This document shows, in pieces, positions 33,531 through 61,244 of a DNA stretch of 64,000 bases. Made by a program: the position numbers and the translations under genes. The notes under the pieces were generated by a model. The model was not told the origin of the DNA. It ran no database searches and was given only the letters and a program-made list of their open reading frames with translations. Each line of letters begins with the position of its first letter. Within the stretch, counting starts at the first letter, position 1. Origin of the DNA: Pyruvatibacter mobilis (GTDB lineage Bacteria > Pseudomonadota > Alphaproteobacteria > CGMCC-115125); assembly GCF_012848855.1 (NCBI RefSeq), contig NZ_CP051630.1:1839501-1903500 (forward strand). Reading direction: 5' to 3'.

Positions 33531-34229
33531 CTAAATATTGCGCCGGCGGTCCACCAGTTGTTCAACGCGCGGGGCAAGGGCTGCGATTTCTGCCTCGAGC
33601 CGTGTGCGCGTATCCCCCTCGGCCAGGCCCAGAAGCAGGCATGCCCAGGCGTTGAGCGCCTGGGCCTCAAAGCCTTCATGATCAAGGGCACCGCGCGCCC
33701 ACCGATGGCCGGCATTCGCATAGGCATCAAGAATGAAATGGCCGAGGACACGCGGCGGCATGATGGCTCGCAACTGCCCGTCTTCCATCGCCTTGGCCAC
33801 CGCCCGCTCCTGTAGCTGGCGTGCCTTGTTTCCGAGATAGGCTGTCTGCTCGTCCGTCGTGCCGTAAGTCAGCGACATCAGGGGCCGCATCACGTCTTCG
33901 GATTTGCGGAAGCGGTCGATGGAAACGGTGATCACGGCGCGGGAAATCTCGATCCCATCATCGAGATGCAGTTGCTCCAGCGCCTGGGCCAGGTCATCGA
34001 GCTCCTGGGACATCAGGGCCATCAAAACGTCCAGCTTGCCGCCGCTGAACTGGTTGTAGAGCGTCCGGACCGCAAGCCCGGCCTCATCAGCGATCGAACG
34101 GATCTGCAGCCCTTCCACCCCCTCGCGCCGGAGGATTGACCGCGCGGCATCCAGCGCCCGCTGTATGCGCGCCTGCTTGGCGCGCTCCCGGCCGGTCGTG
34201 GGGGCAGACGAAGTGTCGACGATGCTCAT
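33531..34229 (-). CDS. TetR-family transcriptional regulator
   Basis: Regulator of 232 residues. The N-terminal helix-turn-helix spans about residues 25-65 and reads RSILRREGVEGLQIRSIA then AGLAVRTLYNQFSGGKLD. The C-terminal part is a helical ligand and dimer domain, GHFILDAYAN being notable. It diverges from a Rieske oxygenase gene, and a 16-bp palindrome lies in the 90-bp gap, so repression of that gene and itself is likely. The effector is unknown, perhaps the oxygenase substrate. Confidence 0.9.
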   Translation of the reverse strand: MSIVDTSSAPTTGRERAKQARIQRALDAARSILRREGVEGLQIRSIADEAGLAVRTLYNQFSGGKLDVLMALMSQELDDLAQALEQLHLDDGIEISRAVITVSIDRFRKSEDVMRPLMSLTYGTTDEQTAYLGNKARQLQERAVAKAMEDGQLRAIMPPRVLGHFILDAYANAGHRWARGALDHEGFEAQALNAWACLLLGLAEGDTRTRLEAEIAALAPRVEQLVDRRRNI

Positions 34230-34270: not shown

Positions 34271-34319
34271 TTTGAGTCACGCTTCTTTCAGCGACACTGG
34301 CTGATGGGAGGTGACGGCC

Positions 34320-35486
34320 ATGGAAAAAGCCGAACAGATCAAGGTTCTGAAGCAGCTGATGGCCCATATCGATGCGGGCACCAACGTGGATGCCGGCGGC
34401 ATCCGGCATACGCCTGCGGAGACCTATACGAGCCCGGCGCGAGCCCTGCAGGAGTGGGACAGATTCTTTCGCGGCCATCCCCAGATCATCGGCATGAGCG
34501 GCGACCTGCCGGAGCCCGGCAGCTTCACAACGCATGACGATTTCGACCTGCCGATCCTTGCCACCCGCGACCAGAGCGGCCGGTTCCGCGCCTTCGCAAA
34601 TGTGTGCCGCCACCGGGGTGCCATCGTGGAGACCGAAACAAGGGGCAAGAAGAAACTGTTCTCCTGCCCCTTCCATGCCTGGACATATGCGCCCGACGGC
34701 CGACTGGTCGCAGTGCCGAAGGAGGATCACTTCGGGCAGATCGACAAGGACTGTCACGGACTGACCGAGTTGCCTGCCACGGAACACTGCGGACTCCTGT
34801 GGGTTCATCCGCAGGCGGATGGTGTGCTCGATATGGACACCCTCATGGCCGGCCTGACGCCGGAGTTCGACTCCTGGGACTTCTCCCGCATGGTCTATCT
34901 GGGTGAGGACACCTATGAGACGCCGATGAACTGGAAACTCGCCATCGATACTTTCGGCGAGACCTACCATTTCTCGGCGCTGCACAAGAACTCGCTGTTC
35001 CCGTTCTTCCACGGCAATGTGCAAGCCTATGACACCTATGGGCGCAACCACCGCATGTCATTGTGTACGCGCGGTATCGACGAACTGCGCGGAACAGACG
35101 AGGCCGATTGGCACATCACCGACGGTGCGTTTCCGGTCTATTACATGTTCCCGAATGTGCAGGTGAATGTGGGGGCGACCACGGTCATCTTGGTGCGCGT
35201 CTATCCGCATGGGGATGATCCACACCGTTCCTATTCACGCATCACCTTTTATGGCCGGCCTGAAGCGCTGGACCAGGATGATGAACGTCTGGTGGAACTC
35301 CCCCGTCAGTTTGCCGAAATCATTCGTGACGAAGACTACGTGGCAGCGGCTTCATCGCACAGGGGACTCAGGTCAGGGCTTCTTGACCACATGGTGTTCG
35401 GCCGCAATGAGCCTGCCCTGCACCACTATCACAACACCTATCGCGAAGCGCTTGGCCTCGCGCCACTTCCCCTGATGGAAGCGTGA
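34320..35486 (+). CDS. Rieske 2Fe-2S aromatic ring-hydroxylating oxygenase, alpha subunit
   Basis: Oxygenase component of 388 residues. The Rieske centre is C96-x-H98 (CRHRG) and C116-x2-H119 (CPFH). The mononuclear iron site is visible as D210-TFGETYH217-FSALH222, giving the two His ligands. This is the layout of RHO alpha subunits, which hydroxylate or demethylate aromatic, terpenoid or quaternary-amine substrates. No beta subunit, ferredoxin or reductase gene is adjacent, so electron donors are elsewhere. GGAGGTGA lies six bases before ATG 34320. Probably controlled by the divergent TetR protein. Confidence 0.91.
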   Translation: MEKAEQIKVLKQLMAHIDAGTNVDAGGIRHTPAETYTSPARALQEWDRFFRGHPQIIGMSGDLPEPGSFTTHDDFDLPILATRDQSGRFRAFANVCRHRGAIVETETRGKKKLFSCPFHAWTYAPDGRLVAVPKEDHFGQIDKDCHGLTELPATEHCGLLWVHPQADGVLDMDTLMAGLTPEFDSWDFSRMVYLGEDTYETPMNWKLAIDTFGETYHFSALHKNSLFPFFHGNVQAYDTYGRNHRMSLCTRGIDELRGTDEADWHITDGAFPVYYMFPNVQVNVGATTVILVRVYPHGDDPHRSYSRITFYGRPEALDQDDERLVELPRQFAEIIRDEDYVAAASSHRGLRSGLLDHMVFGRNEPALHHYHNTYREALGLAPLPLMEA

Positions 35487-51004: not shown

Positions 51005-51556
51005 CTATCGCGGCCCGGCGTTGGGCCCTTCACTCCGTGGCCCGCCTGGATGCCCCTCCCCGTCCGGCCTGTTCCGCGGACTTCCGGGGCCGCGCAGATT
51101 GCGGAATGCTTCGCTGAAACGCTGCCGCTGGTCGGGCGTCAGCTCTGCCAGGATCCGAGTCAGGGGAACCTGCAGGGATGTGGTGAGGTCCGTATGGGCC
51201 GCGCGCACATTGTTGAAGGCCTGCTCAAGCGCCTGCGGGTCGTAGGGATCCGCCTCCATCGCTACCACGACATCACGGTGACGCTGGCGCATGGTGCGGA
51301 ATTTCTCACGCAGGTCGGGCACTTCCGCGCGCAGCTCCCGCAGCACGCGGCGGCCCTCCTCCTTGCCGAGGATACGGATGAACATGTGCGGATTGGGCAG
51401 CATGTCCACCGCCACACCCCGGTCGCGAACCGGATGATCGCGCAGCATCGGGCCGCCGATCAGCAGACCGGCAAAAAAGAGATTGGCGGCCAGCGACACG
51501 AACAGGGCGATGTTCACCCAGCGGCGGGGCTTGCTGACCGGTGCCTGATCCGTCAT
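51005..51556 (-). CDS. CnrX/ZraP-like periplasmic metal-sensor family protein
   Basis: Protein of 183 residues with one N-terminal membrane anchor (about 14-35) and a helical periplasmic part in the heavy-metal-resistance (Metal_resist) pattern: RRVLRELRAEVPDLREKF, MRQRHRDVV and TRILAELTPDQRQRFSEAF, with a Pro/Gly/Arg-rich tail. CnrX-type proteins tune an anti-sigma factor in response to metals; here the His/Met ligand set is sparse. Its ATG overlaps the stop of the upstream putative anti-sigma gene as ATGA, so they are translationally coupled. Confidence 0.78.
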   Translation of the reverse strand: MTDQAPVSKPRRWVNIALFVSLAANLFFAGLLIGGPMLRDHPVRDRGVAVDMLPNPHMFIRILGKEEGRRVLRELRAEVPDLREKFRTMRQRHRDVVVAMEADPYDPQALEQAFNNVRAAHTDLTTSLQVPLTRILAELTPDQRQRFSEAFRNLRGPGSPRNRPDGEGHPGGPRSEGPNAGPR

Positions 51557-52074
51557 TGCGCCCACTCCTCATAGGTCGAGCCGGTGTCATAGAAGATGGA
51601 CAGCGATGCATCGTCGGTGGCGAGGCTCGCGGTCTCGTACTCCGTGCCGGTGATGCCGGTGACCGGAACGGCGCCCGTCGTGCCGACCCAGATGCCGACG
51701 GCCAGCGACGCGGCCAGGCCGAGCGCCGGCTGCCATGCCGAACCCTGCGGCCAAAGCTGCTGCCAGAGTTGCTGACTGGCCTGCCTTAGCCAGTCGAGAT
51801 AGCCCCGCCTGTCCCCATGCTGTGGCGCAGGTGCCGATATCGCTTCGCCATGACATGCCGCGCTTTCCAGAATGCGGCGGGCTAGGTCGGCGGACGGCTG
51901 CGGCGTTTCCGCCTGCATCAGCAGCCCGTCCAGCGCGGCGGCCTCATCGCGCCGGGCGGCGAGTGCCGGGTCGGCGTTGATCATCGCCATCGCCGCGTCG
52001 CGCTCAGCGTCAGGCCAACGCGCGGGGTCCGCACCATAGGCGTCCAGCAGTGCCATCACTCTGTCGGGTGTCAT
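51553..52074 (-). CDS. Putative anti-sigma factor
   Basis: Protein of 173 residues: a soluble N-terminal part of about 110 residues rich in Ala and Asp, one membrane helix (about 116-136, PALGLAASLAVGIWVG), and a short periplasmic tail ending DTGSTYEEWAQ. Size, topology and position suggest an anti-sigma factor, but no zinc-binding H-x3-C-x2-C motif is seen and I recognise no named family. Start and stop both overlap neighbours as ATGA (with the sigma gene upstream and the CnrX-like gene downstream), indicating tight coupling. Confidence 0.65.
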   Translation of the reverse strand: MTPDRVMALLDAYGADPARWPDAERDAAMAMINADPALAARRDEAAALDGLLMQAETPQPSADLARRILESAACHGEAISAPAPQHGDRRGYLDWLRQASQQLWQQLWPQGSAWQPALGLAASLAVGIWVGTTGAVPVTGITGTEYETASLATDDASLSIFYDTGSTYEEWAQ

Positions 52075-52853
52075 GCCTCTTCTCCCAACAACTCGTCCTT
52101 GTGGCCCATCAGGGCCGCTTTAAGGCCGCGGCGCCCGCGCGCCAGCAGCGATTCAAGAGCGTCCACGCTCACTTCCATCGTCTCGGCTGCCTCGCCATTG
52201 CTCATCTCATCGAAATGGACAAGCTGCAAGGCGAGACGCTGGCGCTCCGGCAACCCGTTCATCGCCTGCTCCACCAGGCTGCTCTGGTCCCGGGCGGCCA
52301 GCCTGGCCACCGCATCAGGCGCGTCGTCCGCCATCTCCGGGGCTGCCTCCAGCGGGTCGGACTTGCCGTAGCTCTTGCGGCGCATCCGGTCGTAACAGAG
52401 ATTGATCGCAATACGCACGACCCACGTTCGCAAGCGCGCGCCTTTGGGTGTCCAGGTGCCGACGCTGTTCCAGATACGCAGGAACGTTTCTTGCGCCACT
52501 TCTTCCGCATCCGCCTCATTACGCAACATGCGCTTTGCCGTGGCGAAAACCTGGGGCAGGAACTCTTCCACCGCTTCGCGCATGGCCGCCTGCTCGCCGG
52601 ATGCGATCCGGGCGGCGAAAGCAGCGTCAGCCGCGGCAGTGTCGCCAGGCGACGATGTCTTACTGCGTGCCGGTATCACTCTGGCACGGTCCCCCGATTT
52701 GTGACCGGTCCCGTCCGGGCTTCCGGTCCTGGGCGGATGAACGATCCGCAAGGCTAAGCCGGACCGCGCGCCGGTCCAACCCGCTTCTCCCGCCATATTG
52801 CGTAGCCCGGCGGGGCCAATAGCGGGCGAACCGGCGCGGGCAGGCGCACTCAT
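52071..52853 (-). CDS. RNA polymerase ECF-type sigma factor
   Basis: Sigma-70 family protein with region 2 (AKRMLRNEADAEEVAQETFLRIW, cited here by its key DAEEVAQETF) and region 4 (LPERQRLALQLVHFDEMSNG then the HTH VSVDALESLLARGRRGL). There is no region 1.1 or 3, so it is extracytoplasmic-function type. The start is unclear: ATG 52853 gives 260 residues with a disordered N-terminus, ATG 52796 gives 241; the conserved part begins near residue 80. It is coupled to the anti-sigma gene and lies 25 bp after the EF-hand gene. Confidence 0.86.
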   Translation of the reverse strand: MSAPARAGSPAIGPAGLRNMAGEAGWTGARSGLALRIVHPPRTGSPDGTGHKSGDRARVIPARSKTSSPGDTAAADAAFAARIASGEQAAMREAVEEFLPQVFATAKRMLRNEADAEEVAQETFLRIWNSVGTWTPKGARLRTWVVRIAINLCYDRMRRKSYGKSDPLEAAPEMADDAPDAVARLAARDQSSLVEQAMNGLPERQRLALQLVHFDEMSNGEAAETMEVSVDALESLLARGRRGLKAALMGHKDELLGEEA

Positions 52854-52878
52854 GTCACCTGCCCGCGCCACCGTCGTG

Positions 52879-53472
52879 TTACTCGGACTTGCCGTGACGG
52901 TCCGCACGCATGGCCTCACGGGCCGCCTGCATCTCGTCGCGGGTCACTTCACCGTTGCCGTCGGCATCGGCTTTGCCGAACATCATGGCGACACGGCCTT
53001 CCACGAATTCCGCCTCGCTGATGGTGCCGTCCTTGTCGGTGTCCATCATGGCAAAGCGTTCAGCCTTCCGGGCTTCGCGCTTTTCGCTGCGCTCCGCGGC
53101 GGCCTGCTTCATCTCCTCGAGGGTCACAGCACCGCTCTTGTCGAGGTCGAGCCGCTCGAAGCGGGCTTCGATGCGGGCCTCACGGTCGGCCTCACTCGGG
53201 GCGTCCTTGCCGTGATACTTGCCGCCCTTCTTGCCGCCCATCTTGCCATGGCCACGGCCGATCTCGTCGGCGGTGAGACCACCCGACTTGTCCTTGTCGA
53301 GCTTGGCAAAGTGCTTGGCGCCGGCCGCCTTGGCCTCTTCCATCGTCACCACGCCATTGCTGTCAACGTCCAGCCGGTCGAAGCCCTTGCCGCCGGGGCC
53401 GGCCAGGGCAATGCCCGCGGCGCCTGCGCCGAGAGCCAGAACCACGGTCGAAATCGTCAGTGTCTTCTTCAT
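52879..53472 (-). CDS. Secreted five-EF-hand calcium-binding protein
   Basis: Protein of 197 residues with a cleavable signal peptide (KKTLTISTVVLALGAGAAG, likely cut after ALA). Five EF-hand loops follow: DVDSNGVVTMEE, DKDKSGGLTADE, DLDKSGAVTLEE, DTDKDGTISEAE and DADGNGEVTRDE, each with Asp at positions 1, 3 and usually 5 and an acidic residue at 12. A Lys/Gly/His-rich spacer (GRGHGKMGGKKGGKYHG) lies between loops 2 and 3 and might bind metal. Probably periplasmic. It lies directly upstream of the sigma/anti-sigma/sensor set on the same strand. AAGGAA precedes the ATG. Confidence 0.88.
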   Translation of the reverse strand: MKKTLTISTVVLALGAGAAGIALAGPGGKGFDRLDVDSNGVVTMEEAKAAGAKHFAKLDKDKSGGLTADEIGRGHGKMGGKKGGKYHGKDAPSEADREARIEARFERLDLDKSGAVTLEEMKQAAAERSEKREARKAERFAMMDTDKDGTISEAEFVEGRVAMMFGKADADGNGEVTRDEMQAAREAMRADRHGKSE

Positions 53473-53807
53473 CACTCGTTTCCTTTTGACTGAGCGTGTG
53501 TTGCCCCACATGCCCTGAACACTTTCCGGCGCGGCGCTGTGCCATGCGGCCCACCCCGCTTATGGGGAGGCGGGAGGCGGACGCCGGGGCGCCGCGCCGG
53601 GCGGCAGGGCCGCAGACAAAGCATTTGAGGGATGCCGACCGACCGGGGCTCCCAGGGGGTGGAGCGGAATTCCGGTGGCTGCCTGCGACACCAGCCTGTG
53701 GTGTTCATCAGGTCAAACGCAGCTGTGTGGTGACTTCCGTCGCTGTCGCGTCAGGAAAAATGGCCGGATGGAAGCTGCGCGATTTTTCGCGGTATTCTGA
53801 TGAAAAC
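53473..53807. other. Intergenic region upstream of EF-hand gene
   Basis: This 335-bp stretch holds no convincing gene: the only open frames are antisense extensions with unlikely composition. It must contain the promoter for the EF-hand/sigma genes and the 3' end of the flavoprotein operon. I see no clear terminator hairpin, riboswitch or repeat in it. Confidence 0.6.
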
Positions 53808-54968
53808 CTACTGCGCCTCGGGCGGGGTGCGCCGTGCATTGGCGCAGACATAGAAGGGGCGGGGCACAATTGTGGCGGCGATGCGGCGGCCATCCGCGCC
53901 CCGCATATTGAGGGCACGGGCAGACCCCAATACCTCCGATGACACATCGGCCAGCGCGATCACCCGCTTGCAGGCAGGAGACCAGGCCATGCTGGTGACC
54001 CGGCCTGCCGGTGCATCGCCGTCAAACACCGCAGCACCATCAGGAATGTCCGTGCCCGTGACTTCGAGGCCGACAAGGGCATGTCCGGCGCCATGCCGTT
54101 TCTGACGTTCGAGCGCTTTTCTGCCGGTGAAAGCATCCGCGTCCAGACGAACGAGCCGCCCGAAGCCAAGCTCCAGCGGTGTCCGCCGGTCTGCCCGGTC
54201 TGCTGTCAGGGCCGGTACGTAGTCGATGCCGGCGCGCGGGAAACCCGCCTCGAGCTGGGCCAGGGCCTGCACGCTGGTCCCGATGGGGACGGGTGCGAAG
54301 TACGCCGCTTCGCGCCGGAAGCGATCAAGGAGCGGCAGTGCGTTCTCCACGGGGAGACGCAGCTCATAGCCCAGCCCGCCAAGCGGTGAGCGACGGGTAA
54401 CGACGCAATGCGTGCTGCCAAGCTTCATGTCGCGCACGCCGCCCGGACGCAGGGCTTGCAGCCCGCCGAAACCTGCTGACAGCAGGGCGGCACAGGCGCT
54501 GGGGCCTTCAACCGCCAGGGTCGCAATGCGCTCGGACATATCGTCGATGGTGCAGTCGAAGCCGTGGCGCGATATCTCCAGCCAGTCAGATACGCGGGCG
54601 GGCAGGACCAGCCATGACCTGTGATCATCCACCTGCATGACGGTGCCGTCAGCGATCAGATGCCCGTCATCGTCGCAAAGCACGACCCGGCGGCTTGAGC
54701 CGACTTTCACATGTCCGCCGATGCCGCCGGCGAGGCGATCAAGATAGGCGCGGGCTTGAGGACCGGTTACTTCGTATGTCGCCAATGCGGTTCGGTCAGC
54801 AAAGATGCACCGGTTGCGCAGGGCGGCATGCTCGGTCTCCGGCGTGTCGAAACCAGTAGCCAGTGTCCAACCAAGCTGCTGCGTCCATTCATTGGTACGG
54901 GACAGCTCCGCCATGCGGTGATGGAAAGGTGTCGGCCGGACGGCAATGTCGGCATCAACTACGCTCAT
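53808..54968 (-). CDS. GcvT-like folate-binding aminomethyltransferase family protein
   Basis: Protein of 386 residues with the GcvT fold. Visible features are the HHRMAELSRTNEW start, LCDDDGHLIADGTVMQV, where the Asp after IA matches the catalytic Asp of GcvT, RSPLGGLGYELRLP, ARAGID-like PRAGIDYVPA, and FTGRKALERQ in place of the GcvT FIGKEAL. The YgfZ KGCY-x-GQE motif is absent. It should bind tetrahydrofolate and could capture a C1 unit. Its start overlaps the upstream flavoprotein gene by 14 bp, with GGGGGGAG before the ATG, so it belongs to that operon. Not the glycine-cleavage T protein itself, as no gcvH or gcvP is present. Confidence 0.8.
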   Translation of the reverse strand: MSVVDADIAVRPTPFHHRMAELSRTNEWTQQLGWTLATGFDTPETEHAALRNRCIFADRTALATYEVTGPQARAYLDRLAGGIGGHVKVGSSRRVVLCDDDGHLIADGTVMQVDDHRSWLVLPARVSDWLEISRHGFDCTIDDMSERIATLAVEGPSACAALLSAGFGGLQALRPGGVRDMKLGSTHCVVTRRSPLGGLGYELRLPVENALPLLDRFRREAAYFAPVPIGTSVQALAQLEAGFPRAGIDYVPALTADRADRRTPLELGFGRLVRLDADAFTGRKALERQKRHGAGHALVGLEVTGTDIPDGAAVFDGDAPAGRVTSMAWSPACKRVIALADVSSEVLGSARALNMRGADGRRIAATIVPRPFYVCANARRTPPEAQ

Positions 54969-56541
54969 GACCGCTCCCCCCTGCCCCTGCCAGCACGTCA
55001 CGAACGGCGCGCATGGCAGCGCGCCCATTGAGCCCACCACCGGGATGGCTGCCGGCACCCGCCAGGATGAGCCCCTTGATGGGACGATCATGCCCGCCCA
55101 GTTCTGCGACAGGGCGGAAGCCCATGAGCTGGTCCGCTGCAAGATCGAGGTGATGCCATGATGACAGCCCGACGCCTGCCGGGTCCATGTCTTCAGGCGT
55201 CAGGATCGAAATCTCCTCAATCAGATCCGGCAGGTCGGGCGCATAGGCGCTCAGCTGTTTCACAACGCGGGCTGCCAGCAGGTCGCGGGCCTTGCTCCAG
55301 CCCTGCCTCGGGTGCTGGGGCAGGAAGGGAACGAGCGCTGTCAGAAGCTCCCGGCCATCGGCCAGCCCATTGCGGTCAAGGACGGAGGGCACGGTGATTT
55401 CCGCGACCGGATGGTCCGGCAGGTCATCATATTTGGCGGCGTTCGATGCGCGCTCCACCTCGGGCACTGAGGGTGCCAGCATCAGGCGACGCGCCCACAT
55501 TTCATCCGTCAGCCGCGCGATGGTCGGACGCCGTCCAAGCGTAAGCGTGATCCGGCCCAGGGCACCGCCGGGGCGCTGGTGCCGCAGGTTGTTGACCAGA
55601 CCTGCATCGAGGTGGCGCGCGCCGACAAGGTCAAGATAGGTTGATCGCGGATCAATCGCTGAGACGACGCAGCGGGCGCGTATCTCTTCGCCGTGCTCCA
55701 GCACGACACCCAAGACCGTCTGATCTTCGATAAGAAGCTGCGTCACCGGCGCGGAGCACCGGATGTCCGCACCGGCTGCCATGGCGGCATCACGCAGGGC
55801 GGCGATGAGACCTTTTGCACCCCCCGCCACCTGGACAGTGCCGGCACTGCCTGCCTGCTCCAGAGCGCGTTCCCACTGCCAGTGCAGCATGCTGCCCGGG
55901 GCGCGCGGCCCGTGCCGTGAGCTACGCGTTGCCTCAAGTGCCAGTGCTCCCTTGAGGATGTCCGTCTCAAGGCGATCATCCAGAAAATCCGCTACATTGG
56001 ATGGTAGCAGCTGCAGCACCTCCTGAAGTGCTGCGCGCCCTTGCCGGCGCAGACGGAACAGCTGCAGGGCCCAGGCGACGCGCTGGCGGCGATCGAGGTC
56101 ATGAAGATGGGGCGCGTCGCCAACGACCCATGGCATGAGCGCGCCACGCAGCCTGTCGAGGCTTGCCGTTATACTGTCCCACGCCTCTGCGTCACGGCTC
56201 GACCAGTGGAAGATGGCCTCACGCGTTGCCCGGCGGGCGGCCCTTCCCTTGCCGCCGAGCGGGATGTGGCGGCCATCGGGGTCAAGCGCCACGCGGCCGA
56301 CATGGCTGCCCAGCAGGGACAGGCCATGCTTCTTAAGCTTCAGGCGCCTGATGAGGCTCGTGGGCAGGCCGCAGGCGAGCTGGGCTGCGGTTGGTGCCAT
56401 GCCGCCTGTCTGTGTTGCCGCCTCCAGCAGCACGACACTCCGTCCGGTGCGGGCAAGCAGTGCTGCTGCCACGAGCCCATTGATGCCACCGCCGATGACG
56501 GCAACGTCCACCGGATTTGTGTCATTGATGACGCCGGTCAT
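54955..56541 (-). CDS. PYROXD2/CrtI-like FAD oxidoreductase (first copy)
   Basis: FAD-dependent oxidoreductase of 528 residues in the phytoene-desaturase/PYROXD2 class. The dinucleotide fold is VAVIGGGINGLVAAALL (near residue 13) and the C-terminal FAD motif is LILAGAGSHPGGGLNGRAAMR. It shares architecture with the next gene upstream (533 residues), but is clearly diverged, so they look like an old tandem duplication that may form a heteromer. Starts with ATG overlapping that gene's stop as ATGA. No carotenoid genes are nearby. Substrate unknown. Confidence 0.84.
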   Translation of the reverse strand: MTGVINDTNPVDVAVIGGGINGLVAAALLARTGRSVVLLEAATQTGGMAPTAAQLACGLPTSLIRRLKLKKHGLSLLGSHVGRVALDPDGRHIPLGGKGRAARRATREAIFHWSSRDAEAWDSITASLDRLRGALMPWVVGDAPHLHDLDRRQRVAWALQLFRLRRQGRAALQEVLQLLPSNVADFLDDRLETDILKGALALEATRSSRHGPRAPGSMLHWQWERALEQAGSAGTVQVAGGAKGLIAALRDAAMAAGADIRCSAPVTQLLIEDQTVLGVVLEHGEEIRARCVVSAIDPRSTYLDLVGARHLDAGLVNNLRHQRPGGALGRITLTLGRRPTIARLTDEMWARRLMLAPSVPEVERASNAAKYDDLPDHPVAEITVPSVLDRNGLADGRELLTALVPFLPQHPRQGWSKARDLLAARVVKQLSAYAPDLPDLIEEISILTPEDMDPAGVGLSSWHHLDLAADQLMGFRPVAELGGHDRPIKGLILAGAGSHPGGGLNGRAAMRAVRDVLAGAGGSGHERS

Positions 56542-58139
56542 GCGCGCCTCCGCGGCCGTACACCCGCGTCACGCAGCACTTGGGCGGCTGCAACGGCGCC
56601 CGGCGCACCCATCACGCCGCCGCCGGGATGCATGCTCGACCCACACAGATAGTAGCCCCGGACAGGCGTCCGGTAGCGCGACAGCTCCGGGAGCGGACGG
56701 TTGAAGAGAAGCTGGTCCAGCGTCAGCTCACCGTGGAAAATATTGCCTTGGGTCATGCCGATCTCGGCTTCAAGATCAGCCGGCGTACGCGTTTCCACAT
56801 GGCGCACCAGCTTCCGGAATCCGGGTGCATGGCGCTCGATCTTGTCGAGGACGACTTCCTGAAGCTGCGCGCGTTTGGCGTCAGTCCAACTGCCGTCGAT
56901 CAGGCCGTCGGGCACGTACTGGACGAAGACGGAAGCCACATGCTTGCCTGGAGGGGCCAGCGTGGGATCGAGCCGCGACGGCAACACCATCTCGATATAG
57001 GGATCGCGCGGCATGACCCGCTCTTTCCAGTCGTCATAGGCGCGTTCCATGTCGGCGATGGTGCCGCACAGCCGGATGTCGCCTTCAAGGGCTGTGCAAT
57101 CGCTTTCGATCCCGGCAAATTCCGGCAGGCCATTGAGCGCGATATTGAGCTTGGCGGAAGAGCCGCGTGTCTTGAACCGTGCAACGCGTTCGGTGAAGCC
57201 CTGGGGCAGCACCTTCCAGTCGAGCAGCGACAGGATGGACTGCTTCAACTCCAGGCCGGACAGGACGATGCCTGCACTGATCTCGCTGCCATCAGCCAGC
57301 ACAACGCCGGTTGTCTTGCCGCTGGAGGCCTTGACCTCGTCGACCGGGCTTTCGAGACGGATGTCGCCCCCTTCCTCAATGACACAGGCGGCCAGGGCGC
57401 GGGACACGCTTCCCATGCCGCCCCGCACATAGCCCCAGGCACCACGGGCGCCGTCGATACCGCCGGCCCGGTGGTGCAGCATGATGTAGGCGCTGCCGGG
57501 GGACATTGGCCCAAGTCCGGTCCCGATCACCGCCGATGCCGCGAGATGTGCTTTCACAACGTCGGATTCGAAATAGCGATCCAGCAGGTCCTTCGCCGAC
57601 AGGGTCCAGAACCGCACGGTATCCGCCAAGGCAGCAGATGACGTGCCGGCGAACCGACGGAGGTGGGACGTCCCTTCACCCAGCCGCGTGAGGCTGAGAC
57701 TTGCGGGGTCCGGCGGCGGCTGCATCATCAGGGGGCGGATCAAATCCGCCTGTTCCTTCATATCGCGCGCAAAGCGCGGATAGGCGTCGGCGTCACGCGG
57801 CGAATAGCGGGCAATCTCCCGGTGCATGATGTGCGCGTGCGACGAGGATGCGAGATGGCGGCCATCCGGCAGGAAGGTCAGTGACCCGCCGAAAGGAATG
57901 GTCACGAGGCCGTGGCGCGCGAGGTCGAGGTCGCGGATGATCTCCGGGCGAAGCAGGCTCAGGGCATAGGAGCAGCTCGAATAGATGAAGCCCGGCTCGA
58001 TCTCGCGGCTGCTGGCGGCGCCGCCGAGATAGGGGTTCTTTTCAAGAACAACAACGCGCAGACCGGCGCGCGCGAGGTAGGCCGCCGCTGTCAGACCGTT
58101 GTGCCCGGCCCCTATGATGATGGCGTCGAAACGCTCCAT
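56538..58139 (-). CDS. PYROXD2/CrtI-like FAD oxidoreductase (second copy)
   Basis: FAD oxidoreductase of 533 residues. It begins FDAIIIGAGHNGLTAAAYLA, has the VLEKNPYLGGAASS second segment typical of CrtI-like enzymes, ARGAWGYVRGGMGSVSRALA in the middle and YYLCGSSMHPGGGVMGAPG at the C-terminus. The closest known type is PYROXD2, whose chemistry is poorly known. First gene of an operon with the second flavoprotein and a GcvT-like protein; all three starts overlap the preceding stop. Together they suggest oxidation coupled to folate, which is inference. Confidence 0.87.
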   Translation of the reverse strand: MERFDAIIIGAGHNGLTAAAYLARAGLRVVVLEKNPYLGGAASSREIEPGFIYSSCSYALSLLRPEIIRDLDLARHGLVTIPFGGSLTFLPDGRHLASSSHAHIMHREIARYSPRDADAYPRFARDMKEQADLIRPLMMQPPPDPASLSLTRLGEGTSHLRRFAGTSSAALADTVRFWTLSAKDLLDRYFESDVVKAHLAASAVIGTGLGPMSPGSAYIMLHHRAGGIDGARGAWGYVRGGMGSVSRALAACVIEEGGDIRLESPVDEVKASSGKTTGVVLADGSEISAGIVLSGLELKQSILSLLDWKVLPQGFTERVARFKTRGSSAKLNIALNGLPEFAGIESDCTALEGDIRLCGTIADMERAYDDWKERVMPRDPYIEMVLPSRLDPTLAPPGKHVASVFVQYVPDGLIDGSWTDAKRAQLQEVVLDKIERHAPGFRKLVRHVETRTPADLEAEIGMTQGNIFHGELTLDQLLFNRPLPELSRYRTPVRGYYLCGSSMHPGGGVMGAPGAVAAAQVLRDAGVRPRRRA

Positions 58140-58298: not shown

Positions 58299-61244
58299 TC
58301 AGCCGGCGGCGCGTTCTATCAGATCCGCAAAGGCTGCGTTAACCATTGTCTTCGTTTCCATCAGGTCCCTTTCGACCACGGAGAAACTGGGGGCATCCAC
58401 AGCGCGGGCCAGACGGTTCTTGAGGGCTTCGCCCGCCATGGCAGGCACGAAGGTGCCGGATACCGCAATCCGGAGAACCTGGGTGAGATTGTGATAGCGA
58501 TCGGCGGCATCGATCAGTTGCTGGCCGAGCCCCTTGCCGGTGATACCGGCCATGGTGAGTTTCTCGAGCGCTGTGCGGGTGTTGCTGTCCAGGAGGCCTG
58601 CATTGCGGCGGGCATGGATCAGCTGCAGCGTCTGCGCAATGAATTCCAGATCCACGAGCCCGCCGCGGCCATGCTTGATGTCCCACAGCTCATCGCTGCC
58701 GAGTTCGCGGTAGACGCGCTCACGCATGTCGACCACGTCCCCTGCCAGTGTTTTTTCATCCCGACCGTTGCACAGGGCATCGCGAATGGCGCCATCGACC
58801 ATGCTCTGCATCAGGGGGGAGGTCGCGGAAATGACGCGGGCGCGGGTCAGCGCCAGCTTTTCCCACGTCCAGGCACTTTCCTGATGATACTTGATGAAGC
58901 TGCGCAGGCGCGTGGCCAGCGGACCTGCATGGCCGGAGGGGCGAAGGCGCAGATCCACCTCATACAGCGGTCCTTCCGCCGTCGGAACCGTCAGGGCACT
59001 GATCAGCCGCTGGCACACGCGGGTGTAATAGCGCGTGCCGTCGATGGACCGCTTGCCGTTCGACTGACTGGCCTCACCTTCAAACTCATAGATGACGATG
59101 AGGTCCAGATCGGAGGTAGCCGCCATTTCGCGGCCGCCCAGCTTACCCATGGCAATCACCGCCATCTCACCGCCGGGGAGGTCGCCATGGTCACGGCGGA
59201 TTTCGTTCATGGCAGCTGGAACCATGCCGCTGACAAGGGCGGTTGCGAGGTCGGCATAGGCAGGCCCTGCCTCACGGGCGGGGGCCGTGCCGGTGAGGAC
59301 CTGGACGCCGATCTGGAACAATTGCTCCCGCGCATAGATGCGGGCGAGGTCGAGCACCTGCTCGAAGCCATCAGCGCGCTCCAGCAACTCCGCCACTTCT
59401 TCCTGCCGCTGCTCGGCATCCGGCAGTGGTCCATAGAAATCCGCCGCGATCACCGCTTCCAGCACATTGGGGTGCTCGGCGAGGTAGCGCGCCATCATGG
59501 GCGCGGACCCCATGATACCAGCCAGCAGGTCCAGCAGGGCCGGGTTCTGATAGAGCAGCGAGAAGAACTGCACGCCAGCCGGCTGACCGGACAGGAAACG
59601 GTCAAAACGCGACAGAGCCTGGTCCGGACTGTCGACGCCGGAAATGGCGCGCAGCAGCGCCGGGGTCAGCTTGGTAAGCAATTCGCGCGACCGGGCCGCG
59701 CGGGTGGCCTGGATGCGGCCGAAATGCCATTTGCGCACCGTGGCAATGACTGAGGAGGGAGACTGAAAGCCCATGCCCGCCAGGGTCTCGAGCGTTTCAG
59801 GGTCATCATCAGTACCGGTGAAGACCAGTGAGCCTGCTTCTTCAGAGAGAGTCGGTTCACGTTCGAACAGACCGGCATAATGGCCCTGCACTGTTTCCAG
59901 GTGCTGTGTCAGGTCCTTGCGGAAAGCGGTGTCATCGCCATACCCCATGAAGGCCGCGATGGCGGCGATGCCTTCGGCCGTCTTTGGCAGTCGGTGTGTC
60001 TGCTCGTCATTCACCATCTGCAAACGGTGCTCGAGCGTGCGCAGGAAATCATAGGCGCGGGCAAGGTCGTCCCGGGTGGCCGGGTCGATCCACCCCTCCT
60101 CCACCAGCGATGTCAGCATGGGGATTGTGGCGCGGCCGCGGAGCGCCGGTGTCTTGCCACCGCCGATCAATTGCTGGATCTGCACGAAGAACTCGATCTC
60201 GCGGATGCCGCCACGGCCGAGCTTCACGTCATGCCCCTCGATGGCGATGGCAGCGTGGCCACGATGGGCATGGATCTGCCGCTTGAGGGAATGAATGTCC
60301 TCGATGGCGGCAAAGTCGAGATAGCGGCGCCAGACGAACGGCGTCAGCATTTGCATGAGCTGTTTGCCCGCTTCGAGATCACCGGCGCAGGGGCGCGCCT
60401 TGATCATCGCCGCGCGCTCCCAGTTCTGGCCCATGGTTTCGTAATAACTCTCCGCCGCTGCCGCGGAGATCGCCACGTTGGTGGCCCCGGCATCCGGGCG
60501 CAGGCGCAGATCGGTGCGGAAGACATAGCCATCGCCGGTGGGCTCCTGCAGGAGCTTGACCAGGTCCTTGGTGAGGCGGACGAAGAAGGACTGCGGCTCG
60601 CACTTCTCTGAGAACGTCAGACCGTCCGGCTCGAAGAAGACAATAATGTCGATGTCGCTGGAATAGTTGAGCTCAAAGGCGCCGTATTTGCCCATAGCCA
60701 GCACGATGAGGCCGGAGCCGCGCGTGGGCGTCGCCTCGTCCGCGAGGGTAATCTCCCCGCGCGCCGCAGCCTGGCGCAGCAGCCAGCACGCCCCCTGCTC
60801 AATGACCGTATCGGCAAGCAGCGACAGGGTGCGCGTGACCTCGTCAAGCGGCCATGCGCCAGCGACATCCGCGACTGCCGCGAGCAGCGCCAAGCGGCGC
60901 TTGGCAACACGGGCTGCGCGCATCAGTGCTGCCATGTCATCCGCATCGCGCATGGCTTCGCAGCAGCCCGCAAGCAGCCGGTCGCGCATGGCGGCGGGGT
61001 CCTGGCTCAGCAGGTCGGGCAGCAGCAGAGCCTCCCGCTGGATCAGGCGGGCGAGATAGGGCGCATTGCCGGCGCAGGCGGCCAGCAGCTTTTCAGCATC
61101 AGTGTTAGCCAACAGCCCGGCCGCCGGACCGCCAGCATCAGCAGCAAGCTCCTTGAGCGTGCGCTGGGCATGACTGTCATCCGCGACGAAGAGCTGGCGC
61201 GCGGCCGCATGGGCAAGCGGGGACGCGGGATCGGCATGAACCAT
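58299..61244 (-). CDS. glnE: Bifunctional glutamine synthetase adenylyltransferase/deadenylase
   Basis: Protein of 981 residues, normal for GlnE. The two nucleotidyltransferase domains are visible: the N-terminal deadenylylase has GKYGAFELNYSSDIDI (185-200) and the C-terminal adenylylase has GKLGGREMAATSDLDLI (700-716), each with the D-x-D metal site. It adenylylates or deadenylylates glutamine synthetase in response to PII and glutamine. ATG at 61244. A terminator separates it from hup, and an independent transcript is likely. Confidence 0.95.
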   Translation of the reverse strand: MVHADPASPLAHAAARQLFVADDSHAQRTLKELAADAGGPAAGLLANTDAEKLLAACAGNAPYLARLIQREALLLPDLLSQDPAAMRDRLLAGCCEAMRDADDMAALMRAARVAKRRLALLAAVADVAGAWPLDEVTRTLSLLADTVIEQGACWLLRQAAARGEITLADEATPTRGSGLIVLAMGKYGAFELNYSSDIDIIVFFEPDGLTFSEKCEPQSFFVRLTKDLVKLLQEPTGDGYVFRTDLRLRPDAGATNVAISAAAAESYYETMGQNWERAAMIKARPCAGDLEAGKQLMQMLTPFVWRRYLDFAAIEDIHSLKRQIHAHRGHAAIAIEGHDVKLGRGGIREIEFFVQIQQLIGGGKTPALRGRATIPMLTSLVEEGWIDPATRDDLARAYDFLRTLEHRLQMVNDEQTHRLPKTAEGIAAIAAFMGYGDDTAFRKDLTQHLETVQGHYAGLFEREPTLSEEAGSLVFTGTDDDPETLETLAGMGFQSPSSVIATVRKWHFGRIQATRAARSRELLTKLTPALLRAISGVDSPDQALSRFDRFLSGQPAGVQFFSLLYQNPALLDLLAGIMGSAPMMARYLAEHPNVLEAVIAADFYGPLPDAEQRQEEVAELLERADGFEQVLDLARIYAREQLFQIGVQVLTGTAPAREAGPAYADLATALVSGMVPAAMNEIRRDHGDLPGGEMAVIAMGKLGGREMAATSDLDLIVIYEFEGEASQSNGKRSIDGTRYYTRVCQRLISALTVPTAEGPLYEVDLRLRPSGHAGPLATRLRSFIKYHQESAWTWEKLALTRARVISATSPLMQSMVDGAIRDALCNGRDEKTLAGDVVDMRERVYRELGSDELWDIKHGRGGLVDLEFIAQTLQLIHARRNAGLLDSNTRTALEKLTMAGITGKGLGQQLIDAADRYHNLTQVLRIAVSGTFVPAMAGEALKNRLARAVDAPSFSVVERDLMETKTMVNAAFADLIERAAG

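Follow-up and report, generated by a model that had tools for sequence, protein, structure and literature searches.

The question raised by this locus is whether three overlapping genes of Pyruvatibacter mobilis, designated A, B and G, encode two flavoproteins and a folate protein that act together in the oxidative demethylation of an amine. The genes are located on the minus strand of the 64,000-nucleotide stretch of DNA that was analysed (the window), where they follow each other head to tail with overlaps. Gene A (58139-56538) encodes an FAD-dependent, CrtI/amine-oxidase-like flavoprotein of 533 amino acids, with a GxGxxG motif at G10, G12 and G15 and a lysine at position 330 (K330). Gene B (56541-54955) encodes a second flavoprotein of 528 amino acids, which belongs to the same superfamily, falls in a separate clade and has an intact FAD motif. 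Gene G (54968-53808) encodes, from its ATG, an aminomethyltransferase-like protein of 386 amino acids with the GcvT fold and a catalytic acid, D107. The ATG of B lies on the stop codon of A (ATGA overlap), and the start of G, which has GGGGGAG upstream, overlaps the end of B by 14 nt; an alternative, longer G reading frame with a TTG start is present in the ORF list. Three genes with overlapping starts and stops had been reported in the preliminary description, and the reading frames and coordinates agree with it to the base. The host genome (3.33 Mb, one contig) contains a single A and a single B.

Triad loci were obtained from a search of named genomes with A and a search of 289 alphaproteobacterial genomes with G, and each locus was examined for A, B and G. 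Conservation of the genes together had been set beforehand as the neighbourhood check, and the triad was found to be a fixed unit in three proteobacterial classes (Alpha-, Beta- and Gammaproteobacteria), with 92 complete A-B-G triads, in all of which gene order and strand are alike. Among these, the intergenic gap was at most 50 nt (overlaps included) between A and B in 90 triads and between B and G in 84. The named-genome loci were picked by A alone, so that the adjacency of G in them is not circular. The 18 best G matches in the 289 alphaproteobacterial genomes had flavoprotein neighbours except at contig ends, and G of the triad type is patchy, occurring in about 18 of the 289. The hosts include Rhizobiaceae, Mesorhizobium, Kiloniella, Rhodobacterales, Comamonadaceae, Porticoccaceae, Steroidobacteraceae and others. 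Omega values of 0.04-0.14 for A, B and G in two pairs of relatives indicate purifying selection and, together with the 92 conserved triads, place the linkage of the three genes beyond chance.

Incomplete triads were confined to contig ends, with the exception of a Shinella sumterensis plasmid (L155). This plasmid carries a single flavoprotein gene and a GcvT-like gene above the TIGR00528 cut-off (L155:8995-11746), and the neighbouring genes are an ADP-forming CoA ligase, a 3-hydroxyacyl-CoA dehydrogenase and a 3-keto-5-aminohexanoate-cleavage-like gene. A second GcvT-like gene is found shortly 3' of the triad G in L060 (13307-14440), L066 (13327-14460), L070 (13746-14879) and L038 (9206-10468). 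No fusion of A or B with G was seen among the loci; long ORFs running over neighbouring genes in L054, L059 and L073 were considered as fusions and look like frame-extension artefacts.

Both A and B matched the Amino_oxidase, NAD_binding_8 and DAO families, all above the Pfam cut-offs, and in a quick tree each formed one clade (SH-aLRT 100), in keeping with the earlier claim of two diverged CrtI-like FAD enzymes. The GxGxxG FAD motif is kept in 93 of 93 A proteins and 92 of 93 B proteins, and we infer that both bind FAD. As regards membership of the CrtI/amine oxidase superfamily, this motif was found in A and B and the fold in A, which alone of the two flavoproteins was modelled (AlphaFold2, pLDDT 84.8). 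The predicted fold of A scored Z 33.5 against gamma-carotenoid desaturase (4rep) and Z 23.9 against putrescine oxidase (2yg7); in this model A is nearest in fold to a carotenoid desaturase, not to an amine oxidase. The CrtI/CrtO desaturase-ketolase family and the bacterial amine oxidases share their fold and FAD motifs with A and B, but both proteins fall below the curated CrtI and CrtO cut-offs, with 123.1 bits for A and 84.0 bits for B in the CrtI phytoene desaturase model TIGR02734 (crtI_fam, cut-off 238.1), and 277 and 159 bits, respectively, in the CrtO model (cut-off 1000). They also differ from CrtI in having a basic residue at position 330, where CrtI has Ser, A has Lys in 87 of 93 proteins, and B has Lys or Arg in 91 of 93 (Arg, not Lys, in the window). 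K330 of A may correspond to the flavin-N5 lysine of amine oxidases; the profile alignment between A and an amine oxidase of Mesorhizobium covers the FAD region alone. Carotenoid genes were not seen in the catabolic clusters examined (described below). Compared with its relatives, the B protein of the window is shorter by about 11 residues behind the FAD site, owing to an in-frame gap.

The third protein, G, matched the Pfam domains GCV_T (112 bits, cut-off 25.6) and GCV_T_C (50 bits, cut-off 25.9). Both these domains and the fold of GcvT are present in G, the predicted fold (VIA; AlphaFold2, pLDDT 92.3) scoring Z 45.2 against GcvT (1woo), 43.8 against dimethylglycine oxidase with folic acid (1pj6) and 42.6 against sarcosine oxidase alpha (2gag). 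The catalytic residue of T. maritima GcvT is D96, and alignment to 1woo places D107 of the window G at the same position, which upholds the GcvT catalytic Asp previously ascribed to this protein. Among 93 G proteins, the acid site is occupied by Asp in 81 and Glu in 7 (D/E in 88 of 93) and the acid is lost in 5. The modelled fold and the acid of G fit folate chemistry, and G is predicted to bind folate.

The earlier statement that glycine-cleavage partners are lacking also holds, with neither gcvH nor gcvP beside G, which has glnE and EF-hand/sigma genes as neighbours. G was considered as the glycine-cleavage T-protein of the genome and rejected, since a bona fide gcvT (GCV_T 261 bits) is present away from the triad, as is a YgfZ-like GCV_T match, and since the curated GcvT cut-offs are missed by G (TIGR00528, 95.3 bits with a cut-off of 235.85; PRK00389, 129.8 with a cut-off of 300). 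The soxA model gave 94.3 bits (cut-off 1164), and the trimethylamine N-oxide (TMAO) demethylase model NF053776 gave 127.4 bits (cut-off 1100) with the stand-alone, unfused G. All family matches of A, B and G lie under the curated NCBIfam cut-offs, those of the Pfam domains alone being exceeded, and the curated GcvT, SoxA, TMAO demethylase, DmdA, CrtI and CrtO cut-offs are so far from being reached that A, B and G fit no named enzyme.

What the triad might act on is suggested by its surroundings. Outside the lineage in which it is linked to glnE, 59 loci of at least 15 kb were scored for neighbours by homology at E 1e-10 (raw counts). These loci contained genes for a TetR regulator (56), PotA (52), PotD (52), PotB/C (51), a class III aminotransferase (42) and a Rieske protein (29, the Rieske gene in Rhizobiaceae often lying beyond the fetched stretch), and annotated plasmids show the same catabolic neighbourhood. 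The best curated models were BetI for the TetR regulator, GbcA for the Rieske protein, and PotD and PotA for the transporter, a polyamine-type PotABCD importer; the neighbour matches were nearly all under the equivalog cut-offs, and that of the aminotransferase model PRK07036 was reached. Some clusters also contain a PuuC-like aldehyde dehydrogenase or a gamma-glutamylputrescine-synthetase-like (GlnA-like) gene, an acyl-CoA dehydrogenase and an ADP-forming CoA ligase, or a reductase with GbcB among its matches. FolD, using the query from the host genome, was found near none of the triad loci, and FTHFS is absent from the host genome. An ORF of 83 amino acids with no NCBIfam match lies directly 3' of G in 33 of the 59 larger loci (L151:13394-13645 and relatives), the hosts, where seen, being Rhizobiales or related Alphaproteobacteria.

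Most of the triads lie in such clusters, of which the simplest reading is that a cationic N-methylated amine is taken up and broken down, and the Pot importer, BetI-like TetR regulator, aminotransferase and GbcA-like Rieske neighbours favour a folate-coupled oxidative N-demethylation. On balance, A, B and G are probably the three subunits, or tightly coupled parts, of an oxidative N-demethylase with folate capture, and the overlapping genes in fixed order would fit a single complex. The reaction would run in the oxidative direction, with one or both FAD subunits (A being the likeliest, with B as a partner flavoprotein) converting an N-methylated amine to an iminium by oxidation of its methyl-nitrogen bond. 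Tetrahydrofolate (THF) would be held in the GcvT-type pocket of G, where the one-carbon unit may be captured as 5,10-methylene-THF with the aid of the Asp or Glu, so that free formaldehyde would be avoided. The logic would be that of dimethylglycine and sarcosine dehydrogenases, carried out on flavoproteins of the CrtI/amine-oxidase type, not the DAO type, and on separate chains. Most of the bacteria probably take the substrate up from outside as a cationic, polyamine-like amine, which may often be trimmed first by the Rieske oxygenase and have its amino group attacked by the aminotransferase as well.

The triad of the window belongs to the glnE-linked lineage, which comprises Ca. Phaeomarinobacter, its relatives and several other alphaproteobacterial families. 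The gene for glutamine synthetase adenylyltransferase, glnE (58299-61244, minus), was recognised by homology to GlnE of L163 and by tblastn synteny, and is a conserved upstream neighbour, not a part of the pathway. On the other side, also on the minus strand, are an EF-hand protein gene (52879-53511), which is the conserved downstream neighbour in this lineage, and the syntenic genes for an ECF sigma factor (52071-52919), a putative anti-sigma factor (51553-52074) and a Metal_resist protein (51005-51565); these four genes follow the triad in most glnE-linked members. Elsewhere in the window, about 18 kb from the triad, is a gene for a GbcA-like Rieske oxygenase alpha subunit (34311-35486, plus; 88 bits, cut-off 670), and divergent from it is a gene for a KstR-like TetR regulator (33531-34229, minus).

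This lineage gives grounds for a different explanation, in which the glnE-linked triad would have been repurposed, with altered chemistry and an endogenous substrate, while G drifts to a structural or regulatory role. The glnE-A-B-G synteny is consistent with such a change, as is the finding that Pot transporter, TetR, aminotransferase and Rieske neighbours were present in none of the 11 glnE-linked loci and are lacking beside the window copy. The acid of G is replaced in L040, L041, L163, L166 and L168 by K, A, L, I and L, respectively; these five of the 93 proteins are all diverged alphaproteobacterial copies, and at least four (L040, L163, L166 and L168) are glnE- or sigma-linked like the window copy. 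B and G also evolve faster than A. However, the window copy and three congeners keep D or E at the acid site, and omega was 0.05-0.14 across all three genes in the L034/L036 pair, and we consider repurposing unlikely, although it is the alternative to be taken most seriously. With the catabolic neighbours missing and the acid lost in some relatives, extrapolation to the window copy is weaker, and the catabolic clusters can be assigned a function with more confidence than this copy. Under the N-demethylase reading, the substrate in the glnE-linked lineage would come from inside the cell, such as a methylated lysine or polyamine. The preliminary description had proposed a split version of the demethylase logic with an unrelated flavin enzyme; the N-methyl-amine side of this proposal gained support from the Rieske, polyamine importer and aminotransferase neighbours and from PYROXD2 mQTLs (see below), but the window copy, for which it was made, is without those neighbours.

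Alternatively, G could be a demethylase by itself, transferring a methyl group to THF in the manner of DmdA or LigM, with A and B catalysing a separate C-C or C-N desaturation in the same pathway. The DmdA, LigM and DesA models gave weak matches to G (60, 26 and 30 bits, with cut-offs of 410, 580 and 800), the predicted fold is common to G, DmdA (Z 39.6) and LigM/DesA (Z 29.6), and the nearness of A to a carotenoid desaturase in predicted fold would suit a separate redox step. This appears improbable, since the GcvT, dimethylglycine oxidase and SoxA folds score higher than those of DmdA and LigM, the gene arrangement fits one complex, and the Rieske, BetI and Pot neighbours suggest N-methyl chemistry. 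A coincidental cluster of broad-specificity flavoproteins and a degenerate gcvT paralogue, to which the large size of all three families and the generic RefSeq names might point, is highly improbable: chance clustering is ruled out by the 92 conserved triads, and both the separation of A and B into two clades and the purifying selection argue against it.

A prior description of the A-B-G system was not found in the open-access literature, and one may exist elsewhere; nothing relevant to the idea of a homarine operon was found in the same literature. Human PYROXD2 is a putative relative of A and B, as named in the preliminary description, and is not known to have a GcvT partner. It is the main mQTL for N6-methyllysines, and a missense variant is reported to explain about half of the variance in blood N6-methyllysine and to be associated also with dimethyllysines (N6,N6-dimethyllysine) and N-methylpipecolate (PMC8109053, PMC9730628). 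The link to N-methylated lysine fits the proposed chemistry and, if A and B are kin of PYROXD2, the mQTL data support N-methyl-amine oxidation. A wider proposal, which we regard as plausible while stopping short of calling it probable, is that the triad represents a hitherto undescribed class of folate-coupled N-demethylase, in which a pair of CrtI/PYROXD2-type flavoproteins is combined with a stand-alone GcvT. Such an enzyme would form the core of a widespread proteobacterial degradation of N-methylated polyamine-like compounds, and the biochemistry of human PYROXD2 could be modelled on it in bacteria. If true, a function would be given to gene families that, in many bacteria of soil and sea, carry no more than the label 'NAD(P)/FAD-dependent oxidoreductase' or 'aminomethyltransferase family protein', a route for methylated-amine turnover would be opened, and the orphan disease gene PYROXD2 would become approachable via its bacterial relatives.

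In dimethylglycine dehydrogenase/oxidase and sarcosine dehydrogenase, which are among the closest known systems, a GcvT folate domain and an FAD domain of the DAO type are fused. A-B-G is similar in pairing an FAD enzyme with a GcvT-type domain that has the acid, and N-demethylation to 5,10-methylene-THF would be expected, but it consists of three separate genes with two CrtI/amine-oxidase-type flavoproteins in place of one DAO-type FAD domain. The GcvT-type folate domain with catalytic acid, as in the DMGDH/SoxA type, is present in G, whereas the flavin chain of that family is absent and CrtI/Amino_oxidase-like A and B are found instead. Heterotetrameric sarcosine oxidase (SoxBDAG) and N-methylglutamate dehydrogenase are multi-gene systems with two flavin-binding chains and a GcvT-type folate unit, and A-B-G resembles them in having several genes, two flavin-type chains and a GcvT-type unit; SoxA, however, is a fusion of the GcvT unit with a flavin chain, and A-B-G is without visible small subunits of the SoxD/SoxG type. 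The C-terminal GcvT-like domain of trimethylamine N-oxide demethylase (Tdm) is related to the stand-alone G (243 bits for a Rhizobium G, 127 for the window G), but Tdm is one fused protein, its cut-off of 1100 is missed by G, and the partner domain of its GcvT-like part is not a flavoprotein. Judged by sequence, A-B-G resembles the logic of DMGDH and sarcosine oxidase and is not a member of the group, from which it differs in flavoprotein type, architecture and cut-offs. If the proposed chemistry is true, amine oxidation and the folate capture of formaldehyde have been combined twice in evolution, on this second occasion with a flavoprotein of an unrelated type.
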